64,000 nucleotides of DNA. It comes from Pseudomonadaceae bacterium. GTDB taxonomy: Bacteria; Pseudomonadota; Gammaproteobacteria; Pseudomonadales; Azotimanducaceae. The notes under the pieces were generated by a model. That model did not search any database and was not told where the DNA came from. It saw only the letters and a program-made list of their open reading frames with translations. Of this stretch, positions 10,824 through 15,239 are shown piece by piece (position 1 is the first letter of the stretch; the number at the start of each line of letters is the position of its first letter). The DNA lies in the NCBI GenBank assembly GCA_024743435.1, contig JANSWO010000003.1:62001-126000 (forward strand). Reading direction: 5' to 3'. A program made the position numbers and the translations under genes.

Positions 10824-11044
10824 CGCTGCTGTCTTCTGTTGGTTGCTGTCTTGGTTAACGTTCCGAAATGCCGCCGCCCGGGTTCGCGTCGATCGCGTCG
10901 GCAAGGCGGAAAATGGCGCGGAAGTATAGCGAAATCCTGCCGGCGCCACCGACGCCGTGTCAGCATGACGTCTGGATTGCTAGACGCCTGTTGGCCTTGT
11001 GGGGCACCCTTGTCGCTCGGTAAGGACTGACAACGAGGGATGCG

Positions 11045-11776
11045 ATGTACGAGTTGCACTACTGGCCGACGCCAAACGGCAAAAAGGTCACGATTCTGCT
11101 CGAGGAGCTTGGCGTGCCGTACGACGTGGTGCCCTGCAACATTGGCCGTGGTGATCAGTTCCAGGACGATTTCCTGGCGTTCTCTCCGAACAACCGCATG
11201 CCGGCTTTGCTGGACACGCAGCCGCTCGATGGCGGTTCGCCCCTTGGCGTCTTCGAATCCGGCGCGATCATGATCTATCTGGCCGACAAAGAGCGCCGGT
11301 TCATTGCGCCGGCCAGTGATGCCCGTGGACGTAACTCGGTGGTGCAATGGGTGATGTGGCAGATGGCCAACCAGGGGCCAAAAACCGGAGAGCGCGGCCA
11401 CTTTCACCGATTGGGCGAGGAGGCTGGTGACCAAAGCTACGCCCGTCGCCGCTTCGATGACGAGGTGAATCGCTGCTATGGCGTGCTGAATTACGCGCTT
11501 TCCCGTTCACAGTACGTCGCCTCGGACGACTACTCGATTGCCGACATGATCTGTTATCCGTGGACCGTCGGGTGGCAGCAGCAAGGCCAGGACATCGACG
11601 AGTTCCCCCATTTCAAACGCTGGTTCGAAGCGCTCAGTGCTCGGGATGCGGTGGTTCGCGGGATGGCGGTGGGCAGTGATATGGGCGAGGACTACAGCAA
11701 GCTGTCAGCCGAGGAAATCGAACGCCGTAAGGCGCTGCTGTACAACCAGCGGGCGCGCCCCGTTCGAGCGAGTTGA
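11045..11776 (+). CDS. Glutathione S-transferase, nu-class (YfcG/YghU-like)
   Basis: 243 aa with an N-terminal thioredoxin-like domain (YELHYWPTPNGKK..., PNNRMPALLD, ESGAIMIYLA) and an all-helical C-terminal domain. The pattern resembles YfcG/YghU and Ure2p-like enzymes, which act as disulfide-bond reductases with glutathione more than as classical conjugating transferases. GAGGG lies 5 bp before the ATG. The stop overlaps a TTG of the next frame, so it is first in an operon with the thioredoxin-fused protein and the selenoprotein; that context supports a thiol/redox role. Confidence 0.9.
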   Translation: MYELHYWPTPNGKKVTILLEELGVPYDVVPCNIGRGDQFQDDFLAFSPNNRMPALLDTQPLDGGSPLGVFESGAIMIYLADKERRFIAPASDARGRNSVVQWVMWQMANQGPKTGERGHFHRLGEEAGDQSYARRRFDDEVNRCYGVLNYALSRSQYVASDDYSIADMICYPWTVGWQQQGQDIDEFPHFKRWFEALSARDAVVRGMAVGSDMGEDYSKLSAEEIERRKALLYNQRARPVRAS

Positions 11777-11781
11777 TTGAC

Positions 11782-13314
11782 ATGCCGAATGCAAAAGCCT
11801 TCAGCATCGGCGATGTGACGTTTGATCCCGCTGGCGATGCGCTCGTGGTGTTCGTCAAGGAAGATTGCCCGACGTGCAATGACGTCATGCCACTGCTGGC
11901 GCACTGGCTCCGCTGCGAGCTCTCTATACCATTGCTGGTTATTGGCCAGACCAGCGACGGCAATGCCGCGTTGCAAGCTCGCTATGACCTCGAGCAACCA
12001 TTGCTGGACGATTCCAGCCTCGCCATCTCCTTTGCCTGGGACATTGAAACGGTGCCGACGCTCGTCCGCACCGGCAGCCAGGCACGCGTGCTCGAGGGGT
12101 TTGTGCGTGATGAGTGGCAGGCGTTAGCAGCCGACGCAGGCTTGCCGGACTACGATTACTCGACACTCCCTGCCTGGCGGCCTGGATGTGGCTCGTTGTC
12201 CGTTGACCCGCAACACTATGATCGATTGCGCGCCGAAGCCGATGGCAGCCCGATTCGCGCCCGGAAAGTCGACATTGGTGCGTCCGACGATGAGATGGAG
12301 TTTCTGTTTGATGCCGGCTTCACCGATGGATTGCCGGTGGTGCCGCCGACACCCGAGCGGGTGCTACGGATGCTCGATGGCATAGACCGGGACCCTCAGG
12401 ACATTGTCGCCTGCGTGCCACCTAATCTGGCGGACGTGACGCTCGAGAAGATCGCGATTAACGCGGTGATGGCGGGCTGCAAACCGGAGTACCTGCCCGT
12501 CGTGGTCGCGGCGGTAGAGGCGGTATGTACGGACGATTTCAACATCCACGGCGTTATGGCGACCACGATGGGCGCAGCGCCTGTGCTCGTGGTCAATGGA
12601 CCGATTCGCCAGCGAATCGGCATGAATATGGGCATGGGAGCGCTCGGGCAAGGCAACCGCGCTAATGCCACCATTGGCCGCGCCGTGCGCCTGGTGGTCA
12701 GAAACATCGGTGGCGCAGTGCCCGGCGGCACGGAGCGATCAACGCTTGGCTCGCCCCTCAAGTTCACGATGTGCTTCGCCGAATGGGAGGAGCGCAGCCC
12801 CTGGGAGCCATTGCACGTGGAACGCGGCTTCGAGCCGGATGACTCGGTGGTCACCGTGTTCGGCATGAGTAGCGGCCCAACCTATATGGTGGATCAGGAC
12901 TCACGCAGCGCCAGTCAGCTGGCTGGCAGCTTCGGGCTTTGCCTTAAAACAGCGTTCCATCCCCGAGCCCACAGCGCGACCGATACGCTGATTGTGGTGT
13001 GTCCAGAGCACGTGGACACGCTGATCCGTGATGGTTACAGCAAGGCTGACATTCGCGCGCGAATCAAAGAGGTCAGTGACGCACGGCTAGGGGACCTCGT
13101 GGAGGATGATCTGTCCGGGGTAGGGCTCAAACGCGACAAGGCGGCCGCGATTCCCGAGGAAAAACTGGATCGGATTGTGCCCAAGTTTGCCGAACCCGAG
13201 CATATCGCTCTTGTGGTGGCTGGCTCGGATGCCGGTAAGTTCTCGGGTGCCTTTCACGGCTGGGTCCGCGGTCCGATGGGCACAATCCCCGTGTCAAAGA
13301 AGATCAACGCCTGA
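11782..13314 (+). CDS. Thioredoxin-like domain fused to a conserved domain of unknown function; partner of UGSC selenoprotein
   Basis: 510 aa. Residues 1-120 look like a thioredoxin fold with an active-site C29-P-T-C32 (KEDCPTCND) and a cis-Pro-like VPT at about residue 93. After a linker with PGCGS, a domain of about 340 residues begins at FDAGFTDGLPVVPPTPERV and contains conserved-looking CVPPN, AGCKPEY, EAVCTDD, a Gly/Met-rich stretch (GMNMGMGALGQG) and a Gly-rich end (SDAGKFSGAFHGW). I do not recognise a function for this second domain. The ATG at 11782 is taken as the start; a TTG nine bases upstream overlapping the GST stop is an alternative. The gene 110 bp downstream encodes a UGSC-family selenoprotein, so the two may exchange electrons; that is inference. 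Confidence 0.8.
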   Translation: MPNAKAFSIGDVTFDPAGDALVVFVKEDCPTCNDVMPLLAHWLRCELSIPLLVIGQTSDGNAALQARYDLEQPLLDDSSLAISFAWDIETVPTLVRTGSQARVLEGFVRDEWQALAADAGLPDYDYSTLPAWRPGCGSLSVDPQHYDRLRAEADGSPIRARKVDIGASDDEMEFLFDAGFTDGLPVVPPTPERVLRMLDGIDRDPQDIVACVPPNLADVTLEKIAINAVMAGCKPEYLPVVVAAVEAVCTDDFNIHGVMATTMGAAPVLVVNGPIRQRIGMNMGMGALGQGNRANATIGRAVRLVVRNIGGAVPGGTERSTLGSPLKFTMCFAEWEERSPWEPLHVERGFEPDDSVVTVFGMSSGPTYMVDQDSRSASQLAGSFGLCLKTAFHPRAHSATDTLIVVCPEHVDTLIRDGYSKADIRARIKEVSDARLGDLVEDDLSGVGLKRDKAAAIPEEKLDRIVPKFAEPEHIALVVAGSDAGKFSGAFHGWVRGPMGTIPVSKKINA

Positions 13315-13423
13315 CGGTTAGCCCGCCGAGCGATCGCTTGGCCGCGAACACGAGTTGAACAACGCCGCATTGCTGGTTAGGTTGAAGCGGCATACAACGA
13401 TTCAATTGTTGAGGATTTGGACC

Positions 13424-13963
13424 ATGACCACCATTTTGGACCCGACGGATGAACGCGTACCCGTCGCGCGGCAGTTGAGCCCGCGCCCTGCGCAACTGGC
13501 CGGCTCAGTGGCCCTGCTCGATATCGCCAAGCCGCGAGGCAACGTGCTGCTTGACCGCTTGTCGGAGCGGCTTGGGCAGCTGGCGCCGAACATCACGATC
13601 AACCGCTATACAAAGCCAACCTTTACCAAGCCGGCGCCGATTGATCTGCGTCAGCAGATTGCTGCGGAAAACCAGTTAGTCGTTGAAGCCTTAGCCGACT
13701 GAGGCTCCTGTACCACGTGCAGTTTGCATGACACGGTATGGTTTGAAGTTCAGGGCATTCCCGCGGTGAGCATTGCTTCCAGCGAGTTTGTCGAAGCCGC
13801 GAGCACGCAAGCCGATTCGCTCGGATTGAGTGACGCGAAGCGAGTGTTTGTCGATCATCCGATTCAGGATGCAACGGATACGGAGATGCGTGAAAAGGCA
13901 GATGCGATTGTCGCTGATGTCATTGCTGCGCTGACGACCTCCGAGCCGCTCGGCGGGAGTTAG
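13424..13963 (+). CDS. UGSC-family selenoprotein; in-frame TGA (13700-13702) read as selenocysteine
   Basis: A single 179-residue protein is proposed across an internal TGA. Codons before it (ATG 13424, with GAGG nine bases upstream) and after it (to TAG at 13961-13963) are in the same frame. The junction reads A-D-U-G-S-C-T-T-C-S, the defining UGSC motif of a small family whose first motif residue is Sec or Cys. The N-terminal half (LDPTDERVPVA..., GSVALLDIAKPRGN, LLDRLSERL) and C-terminal half (HDTVWFEVQGIPAVSIASSEF) both look like one conserved fold. Sec is residue 93, with Cys at 96 and 99. A hairpin at 13708-13741 fits a bacterial SECIS. Standard gene callers would split or truncate this gene. 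The function is unknown; a redox role is inferred from Sec and from the GST and thioredoxin neighbours. SelA/SelB/SelC/SelD are not in the window and must exist elsewhere for the reading to hold. Confidence 0.87.
13708..13741 (+). promoter_or_regulatory. Bacterial SECIS-like hairpin after the Sec TGA
   Basis: A lower stem of 7 pairs (13708-13714 with 13735-13741, three G-U) and an upper stem of 5 pairs (13716-13720 with 13726-13730) enclose a 5-nt apical loop AGTTT (13721-13725). The loop begins 18 nt after the TGA and has a G in its second position. Both features agree with the bacterial SECIS pattern bound by SelB (loop about 16-37 nt from the UGA, G among the first loop bases). The fold was done by hand, without energy calculation. 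Confidence 0.65.
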
Positions 13964-14040
13964 TGCGTAGCGCCCACGGTTTCTTGCTGGGGATGCCCGT
14001 AGATAAATGTTAACGAGCGAGCGACAGCGAGGGGAGGGTG

Positions 14041-14418
14041 ATGGCGACAATTCTTAGGGTTCTGCTGGTGTTGCTCGCCGGTTTCTTCCTGCTTATGGGA
14101 GTCTATTTCGTCAGCGCGCCAATGGCGGCGCAGGAGCTGTTTGCGATTGAGCCGGTCGGATCGCTTGGTCTCAACACCATTCGCGGCGACCTTGGTGGCC
14201 TGTTTCTCGCTTTTGGCGCGTTCGCAGGCCTTGGTTTGCGCAAGCCCTCAGCAGCGTGGTTGCCTGCTCTCGCGGTCATCATGCTCACCATTGCCCTAGG
14301 CCGTGTCACGGGGCTCATAGTGGATGGTTTCAATTCGCAAGCCGTCGTTCTGTTGGCGGTCGAGGTCGCGACCGCAGCACTCGCGCTCGGCGCACATCGG
14401 TTGCTGCCGGATCGCTAA
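14041..14418 (+). CDS. Small membrane protein, DUF4345-like
   Basis: 125 aa with four hydrophobic segments (about residues 5-25, 42-65, 75-95 and 100-120). The RGDLGGLFLAFGAFAGLGLRKP segment and the overall spacing resemble DUF4345-family membrane proteins of unknown role. GGGGAGGG lies just upstream of the ATG. It is 77 bp downstream of the selenoprotein on the same strand and may belong to that operon. Confidence 0.7.
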   Translation: MATILRVLLVLLAGFFLLMGVYFVSAPMAAQELFAIEPVGSLGLNTIRGDLGGLFLAFGAFAGLGLRKPSAAWLPALAVIMLTIALGRVTGLIVDGFNSQAVVLLAVEVATAALALGAHRLLPDR

Positions 14419-14423
14419 CCGGC

Positions 14424-15239
14424 TCAGGGCGCGGCGGGTGGCGGTAGCGCGGCCCATTTGAGATAGCTGCGTAGCGCCAGCCATGCCAACCACAGAGCGC
14501 CCGCCGGCACGAGCAAAGTCTGCACGACAAACAGAACCATCAGATTGACCAGTTCGCCGATCGCGGCTTCCGCCTTGGCCGCGAGACTCTCGATGCTGGC
14601 TTTCAAATTGAACTGATCAGCAAAGCCGCTGAGTCGGTCGAGCATAGAGGTCTCTGCAGGGGGTTCTACGTCGTATTCAGCGACGGCCTCGGAAGTAGCC
14701 TGCAACACGGCGAAGGCCTGCTCCTGACGTTCGTCCAGAAACGCGCTTGAGAAGGCGACGTTTGCCAATAGGACCATGGCGAATAGAAAGCGTGCGAACA
14801 GCACGACGCCGCACAGCCGAATGATCCAACTGGACCCAGGAATCAAACTGGGCCGCCACAGTTCGATGATCGTGAGTGTGGCCGCGATGGTGAGTGCGAT
14901 ATTGACGATTTGACTGGAAAACACTTCCGCGAGCAGCATCTGTGTGCCGATGGAACCTACGGCAACCAGCATCAAGCCGGAAAAGCGCTCGATGAGATCG
15001 TTTAGCGGGTCCAGTGCTTCTCCTGGGGTCAGCGTGACGCCCACACCTGCTGGTTGCAGCGCAACCTCGGTGCCTTGCATCGCGCTAATGCCCGAGTTTA
15101 GGGTTCGCGCAATGGCGAAGGCAGAGAGCGCCTGGGTGAGCAGATTGTCGGATCGCTCAGTCGCAAAACGGTCCAAACCGCCATGCCAGGAGAGCGCCGT
15201 AAAAGCGATGAGAGCGAGGGACAGCAGGGCCTTTGCCAT
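14424..15239 (-). CDS. Membrane protein of unknown function
   Basis: 271 aa. The N-terminal hydrophobic stretch MAKALLSLALIAFTALSW could be a signal peptide or first membrane helix. Further hydrophobic segments lie at about residues 90-115, 120-140, 145-175 and at the C-terminus (LMVLFVVQTLLVPAGALWLAW), just before a short tail with proline repeats. I do not recognise a family. The ATG at 15239 is chosen because it starts the hydrophobic segment; an upstream in-frame start would add nine residues. It lies 84 bp downstream of another unknown gene on the same strand and faces the DUF4345-like gene tail to tail with a 5-bp gap. Confidence 0.65.
   Translation of the reverse strand: MAKALLSLALIAFTALSWHGGLDRFATERSDNLLTQALSAFAIARTLNSGISAMQGTEVALQPAGVGVTLTPGEALDPLNDLIERFSGLMLVAVGSIGTQMLLAEVFSSQIVNIALTIAATLTIIELWRPSLIPGSSWIIRLCGVVLFARFLFAMVLLANVAFSSAFLDERQEQAFAVLQATSEAVAEYDVEPPAETSMLDRLSGFADQFNLKASIESLAAKAEAAIGELVNLMVLFVVQTLLVPAGALWLAWLALRSYLKWAALPPPAAP

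Follow-up and report, generated by a model that had tools for sequence, protein, structure and literature searches.

The window analyzed here, a stretch of 64,000 nucleotides from a Pseudomonadaceae bacterium (contig JANSWO010000003.1), carries on its forward strand a gene of the UGSC family and, next to it, a larger gene, hereafter called the partner (Table 1). From the sequence comparisons presented below, it is well supported that the former is one gene coding for a selenoprotein, in which the TGA corresponds to selenocysteine 93 (Sec93) and is followed by a conserved hairpin.

Table 1. Features of the UGSC locus; positions are counted from the first base of the window.
Feature	Position	Strand	Remarks
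Partner gene, 513 aa	11773-13314	+	Listed with a TTG start; first ATG at 11782; directly upstream of the UGSC gene
Thioredoxin-like domain (TlpA/ResA type) at the N-terminus of the partner	11773-12144	+	Predicted model, pLDDT 93.5
CPTC redox motif of the partner thioredoxin domain	11866-11877	+	Cys32 61/61, Thr34 61/61, Cys35 60/61 (61 aligned partners of the long type)
Partner core domain, uncharacterized family	12259-13311	+	33 columns invariant among 21 diverse members
UGSC-family selenoprotein gene	13424-13963	+	179 codons with TGA as Sec; stop TAG 13961-13963
Selenocysteine codon TGA, Sec93 of UGSCTTC	13700-13702	+	Homologue codons Sec or Cys, one TAG
Whole predicted hairpin	13708-13741	+	Lower stem 13708-13714/13735-13741, without family-wide conservation
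Apical hairpin, conserved part of the SECIS-like element	13716-13730	+	Stem 13716-13721/13725-13730, loop GUU

A single frame connects the ATG at 13424 to the final TAG, and the TGA is its sole interruption; coordinates and translation therefore bear out the two half-genes joined by one TGA that the initial annotation proposed. The translation also contains the D-U-G-S-C-T-T-C-S stretch reported there, at residues 92-100 of the 179-residue reading, with U at position 93. Its assignment to the UGSC family agrees with two curated profiles, both matched above their cut-offs: PF24696 (7e-47, 160.2 bits for a cut-off of 25) covers residues 3-171 and NF041046 (NCBIfam UGSC_fam; 1.3e-46, 158.3 bits for a cut-off of 125) residues 28-171, so the family match spans the TGA, and Sec is present in the (U/C)GSC motif. 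Standard ORF calling splits the gene as anticipated, into a 92-residue product from the ATG (115 residues if TTG 13355 is taken as the start) and a separate 79-aa ORF, 13724-13963. The gene can hence be called hidden under default gene calling, but not as a new family, because UGSC is already curated and named. The family was also said to have no established function: it is known and unassigned (PMC2398784, PMC13188914), and the accessible part of the latter, a 2026 review, counts it among those with largely uncharacterized functions.

Among 97 related genomes, this one included, 54 contain UGSC, with a total of 99 family matches. Exactly one in-frame TGA is found in 93 of these; the six others comprise two copies lacking Sec, a single weak match and three fragments. 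UGSC was present in 6 of 369 genomes sampled more widely from the same class. Homologues align across the TGA and have Sec or Cys at position 93, which was one of the checks suggested at the outset. One alignment is composed of this copy and 72 of 76 homologues less than 90% similar; they were chosen by a script for the UG(S/T/A)C motif, which by construction makes Sec93 and Cys96 invariant there. The identity of the 72 homologues to this copy is 58.4% before the TGA and 57.1% after it. The two copies lacking Sec, in which S replaces U when judged by eye, gave no partner in the stretch around them, which would fit a partner required solely by the Sec or Cys form.

A scan of genome contigs with the partner core only gave at least 528 confirmed loci, of which the best 80 were analyzed, a selection that favors close relatives. 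In 77 of these 80, the U of the UGSC motif is a TGA and in one, from Blastococcus, a TAG; two are contig-edge cases: one contig stops ahead of the motif and the other 177 nt past the partner. The Blastococcus copy is no frame break, as the TAG stands at the Sec position with an identical hairpin sequence behind it. A tRNA-Sec was sought in that stretch and not found; in Geodermatophilaceae, a tRNA-Sec with anticodon CUA has been described together with UGSC-motif selenoproteins (PMC5330540, accessible part). On plasmids (20 of 24 records sampled), a UGSC-like domain was recognized in 18 of the 20 regions. Its Sec position is occupied by Cys in 14 copies, by Sec in three (two of them near-identical, from Paracoccus) and by neither in one, and all 17 copies with Sec or Cys retain the motif's second Cys. 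Natrinema and Arthrobacter are among the sources of Cys homologues. One Paracoccus record has the UGSC gene annotated as two hypothetical proteins.

The absence of selA, selB, selC or selD had been named beforehand as one of two observations that would refute selenocysteine, the other being homologues whose alignment breaks at the TGA, and all four are present in the genome. SelA (TIGR00474, 2.8e-157) adjoins SelB, whose profile match is above cut-off; the tRNA-Sec has the anticodon TCA; and SelD, also above cut-off, is fused to an oxidoreductase, forming the C-terminal portion of a 728-aa protein. Together with homologues continuous through the TGA, this machinery supports the proposed Sec reading at the sequence level. 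The same genome has a second UGSC gene on another contig (C16; L052, 7422-9054), with one TGA, a motif of the UGSCTTG type and another hairpin. It is followed by a 357-aa partner devoid of the thioredoxin domain; two versions of the pair thus occur in this genome.

Downstream of the TGA, the initial annotation described a hairpin with a 5-nt loop at 18 nt, fitting a bacterial SECIS element. Such a loop (AGUUU, 13721-13725) is obtained at that distance if the terminal A-U pair is taken as unpaired; otherwise, the loop is GUU. The fit to a SECIS element holds for the conservation of the apical part, but not for the folding energy of the sequence itself, which is ordinary: its MFE is -11.7 kcal/mol (z -0.28) and is equalled or bettered by 76 of 200 shuffles. 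Across 88 distinct sequences, each of the six apical pairs is retained in 80-88, and the pair 13720-13726 shows compensatory types (C-G in 84, G-C in three and U-A in one). Sliding one side of the stem by 1-3 nt leaves 4-35% pairing; the 70% obtained at -2 is due to the near self-similarity of the stem. Codon choice is fixed among synonyms in 77 sequences, with AGT for Ser +7 (73/73), GTG for Val +8 (40/40) and TGC for Cys +6 (76/77), compared with TGC 45 and TGT 32 at Cys +3 of the same sequences. Relative to synonymous recoding, the mean folding z is -1.27 over 109 genes, duplicates included (88 distinct 45-nt stretches), and -1.23 with a 6-nt shift; ten other gene positions, computed on 60 genes, gave -0.07 to -0.53. 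Taken together, these values argue strongly that the apical hairpin is conserved in the relatives more than the protein requires. The lower stem was rejected as a part conserved across the family. In six sequences of the UGSCTTG group, including the second gene of this genome, two apical pairs are broken and the loop is different. A search of positions 11000-15000 against Rfam returned two matches, at chance level only.

The partner is, judging from gene neighborhoods, a near-constant companion of UGSC across many genomes. It lies beside UGSC in 33 of 37 hand-picked loci (36 out of the 99 family matches, plus this locus), the remaining four being the two Sec-less copies, a broken gene and a locus devoid of UGSC. 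Conversely, UGSC occurs in 79 of the 80 partner-selected loci, at 250 nt or less in 75 of them and 1.7-7.4 kb away in four. In the 97 related genomes, the partner is present in 55 and UGSC in 54, all 54 overlapping. The gene order is variable: the partner can come first or UGSC first, and one pair is convergent. Of the 80 partner-selected loci (again the best 80 of at least 528), 17 also carry selA together with selB, and 16 of those 17 have the tRNA-Sec too. In the cultured carrier Sulfitobacter sp. M05 (L113), selA, selB and the tRNA-Sec are found next to the pair.

Fusions of UGSC with the partner were found in L068-L070, as well as in L177 and L180, both from genome G425 and confirmed by read-through. 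This genome, of the same class, has nine UGSC matches (L170, L174-L181) with one TGA each, in frames of 546-649 aa, and all nine are apparently fused UGSC-partner proteins. On four haloarchaeal plasmids (L222, L223, L228, L229), two partner genes accompany one Cys-form UGSC gene, as if the partner were a heterodimer. On two other plasmids, of Sporomusa (L218) and Vibrio europaeus (L219), the partner is long, possibly through fusion to a diverged UGSC domain, and lies close to genes for aconitase X and DUF126; the Vibrio europaeus domain has lost the Sec/Cys of the motif, and no UGSC domain was detected in the Sporomusa one.

According to its predicted model, the N-terminus of the partner has a thioredoxin fold, in agreement with the CPTC motif. 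It superposes on 1lu4 (VIA Z 13.0, rmsd 2.6 over 119 residues), Foldseek gives 1.3e-4, and a distant peroxiredoxin likeness is visible as well (Z ~10). Short partners of about 350 aa miss this domain. The core belongs to no described family in the searches made: for this copy, there is no Pfam match up to E 1, the best of the 21 members giving a single weak one (0.019), and no match to PDB sequences up to E 10. Fold searches with the whole partner gave match lists filled by its thioredoxin domain.

A thioredoxin connection is also visible in the surroundings. The order is trxB, trxA, partner and UGSC on an Arthrobacter plasmid, and partner, UGSC and trxB on a Roseovarius plasmid, while on a Variovorax plasmid trxB lies three genes ahead of the partner. 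Annotated trxB was thus found in three of the 20 plasmid regions and is missing from the other 17, three of which carry no annotation. The annotated plasmid neighbors are largely catabolic, with CoA transferases, lyases, dehydrogenases, SDRs, RraA and TRAP or tripartite tricarboxylate transporters, and therefore point to a small carboxylate as the substrate, none being named. At the locus itself, a gene at 11045-11776 resembles glutathione-dependent disulfide-bond oxidoreductases, below the curated cut-off, and overlaps the listed partner start by four bases. This GST-like gene was rejected as a fixed part of the locus, since its cluster comprises three loci, this one included.

The predicted model of the UGSC protein is confident (pLDDT 91.9, pTM 0.86) and consists of five alternating beta-alpha units, with Sec93 located between strand 85-91 and helix 94-109. 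In the PDB, it best matches flavodoxin-like proteins and further three-layer folds (Foldseek 2.2e-5, TM 0.48), and VIA gives a Z of up to 11.3, with a designed protein. In this model, such matches would reflect a common arrangement and give no function. The five units do not follow a thioredoxin topology, and hhalign relates the protein to the thioredoxin domain of the partner with a probability of 0.2%. At the sequence level, the UGSC profile has no match to PDB sequences below E 0.48, and in Pfam, up to E 1, the protein matches PF24696 alone, PF07355 (GrdB) being absent.

A likeness to GrdB nevertheless appears in profile comparisons. With the GrdB sequence L182 alone, so labeled for its 448 bits to PF07355 and an adjacent PF09338 gene, the hhalign probability is 94.7% (P 6.2e-8). 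Adding PrdB-like sequences, a label given here, after the GOS paper, to shorter PF07355 proteins, gives 87.3% (P 3.8e-6, score 48.1), or 82.4% (P 1.1e-6, score 35.6) with other settings; the PrdB-like sequences alone give a weak 3.9% (P 0.011), and the signal is carried mostly by L182. Compared with the score of 48.1, 200 column-shuffled UGSC alignments reach 24.5 at most, the reversed one 17.8 and the one with the motif masked 37.3. Sec is aligned to Sec, followed by similar segments (GIPAV/GLPTA and DHPIQD/PHPLGD). The PF07355 match to L182 stops just ahead of the Sec codon, in a 380-aa open frame without stop, so the PF07355 test, negative for the UGSC protein, barely covers the region shared with it, which lies mostly after Sec. 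L182 itself has no relative in the PDB (best E 0.17). UGSC is thus likely, from its sequence, to be distantly related, as a single domain, to the C-terminal region of GrdB that bears Sec. Other relatives (L183-L211) encode short GrdB/PrdB-like proteins whose U-P-V-C or U-P-I-C motif likewise contains a TGA in frame, as read through in 11 loci in addition to L182, and two PF07355 matches occur in the genome studied here.

The partner was also considered as a relative of GrdE, which is not supported: its core and GrdE (L212) are related by hhalign with a probability of 0.4%. As PF09338 is moreover present in one of 38 genomes and absent from this one, pyruvoyl-based activation is not supported either.

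Comparison with known systems places the protein within the UGSC family (PF24696, NF041046; the "UGSC-containing protein" of the GOS metagenome), with a full-length match, the same motif and the same place of Sec; nothing was found to set this copy apart. The family, treated in PMC2398784, PMC9312934, PMC5029168 and PMC13188914, was the fifth most numerous selenoprotein family of an ocean survey, with 255 sequences (Table 2 of PMC2398784). The same 2008 paper describes a fusion of UGSC with a domain "Unknown_1", which may be the partner described here. In the accessible parts of this literature, UGSC was not found linked to GrdB, to a selABC neighborhood or to a partner bearing a thioredoxin, although such a link may still be in print. 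The family being known already, what is added here, also with respect to the initial annotation, is the partner gene with its link to UGSC, the probable kinship with GrdB and the connection to thioredoxin.

With GrdB and the D-proline reductase protein PrdB, UGSC shares the UxxCxxC pattern, the aligned Sec and the similar downstream sequence. A thioredoxin connection is common to both as well: grd clusters contain trxA/trxB (PMC4517662), and glycine reductase uses thioredoxin as the reductant, with a carbon-selenium intermediate (PMC10298544), as far as the accessible parts of both papers go. UGSC differs in being one 179-aa domain without a PF07355 match, and its partner is unrelated to GrdE by hhalign. 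The UGSC-partner pair is, in addition, present in isolates of haloarchaea and Arthrobacter, which we take to be aerobic. GrdB-complex relatives have also been proposed to act on a non-amino-acid carboxylate, fluoroacetate (PMC10838667); that system is an anaerobic rumen operon, and UGSC is not mentioned in the abstract.

UGSC and its partner are therefore likely, as far as sequences indicate, to form a thioredoxin-driven, GrdB-like selenoenzyme. In the proposed mechanism, the partner core would bind and activate the substrate, a small molecule and probably a carboxylate or the corresponding CoA ester. Sec93, as selenolate, would then attack this substrate, with loss of a leaving group, and Cys96 would resolve the selenium adduct as a selenenylsulfide. 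Finally, the latter would be re-reduced by the CPTC thioredoxin domain of the partner or, elsewhere, by a separate thioredoxin/thioredoxin reductase. As a whole, a UGSC selenoprotein that, with its near-constant partner, constitutes a thioredoxin-driven reductase working like glycine or proline reductase is the best explanation, and we consider it probable, though by no means certain.

In other readings, the same genes would have a different role. UGSC could be a generic thiol oxidoreductase of thioredoxin-like fold, as suggested in metagenome papers, with the partner as a redox relay or client only. Such a function would suit the UxxC motif, and UGSC is listed among Trx-fold proteins in the accessible part of PMC13188914. 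The confident model, however, predicts beta-alpha units in an order that is not that of thioredoxin, and most of its top Foldseek matches are flavodoxin-like; the partner, to whose thioredoxin domain UGSC has next to no profile similarity, already provides a thioredoxin. We regard this role as unlikely. Somewhat less likely still is a reductase of peroxide or other reactive species, in which Sec would reduce the oxidant and the thioredoxin domain of the partner would recycle it. Such enzymes usually combine Sec, a resolving Cys and thioredoxin, and the distant peroxiredoxin likeness of the partner domain would be in agreement with this role. This leaves unexplained, however, the large conserved core of the partner and the plasmid neighbors, i.e., the CoA transferases, transporters, lyases and dehydrogenases.

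That the TGA is a true stop, leaving a pseudogene or two small proteins, is extremely improbable, even if default ORF calling splits the gene and the hairpin taken alone is no better than shuffles. A pseudogene or a sequencing error was rejected on the recurrence of the TGA in 93 of the 99 matches and 77 of the 80 loci, the Cys forms and even conservation on both sides, and Cys or TAG stands at the same position elsewhere in a family whose host, here, possesses the full Sec machinery.

Returning to the thioredoxin-driven reductase, a more far-reaching version of it is conceivable, which we advance tentatively, with somewhat less than even confidence. UGSC and its partner may represent an unrecognized branch of the glycine/proline reductases, compact, fed by thioredoxin and also present in isolates taken as aerobic. 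Its selenolate, or thiolate in the Cys forms, would cleave a bond beside a carboxylate, and a substrate-activating subunit of an undescribed family would replace the pyruvoyl protein. In some lineages, the pair travels with selA-selB-selC and may be a main reason for keeping selenocysteine. The near-constant partner, the built-in thioredoxin, the likely relation to GrdB and the named carrier isolates make the function of UGSC directly testable. If the mechanism is true, Sec-based reductive cleavage would extend beyond amino-acid-fermenting anaerobes.
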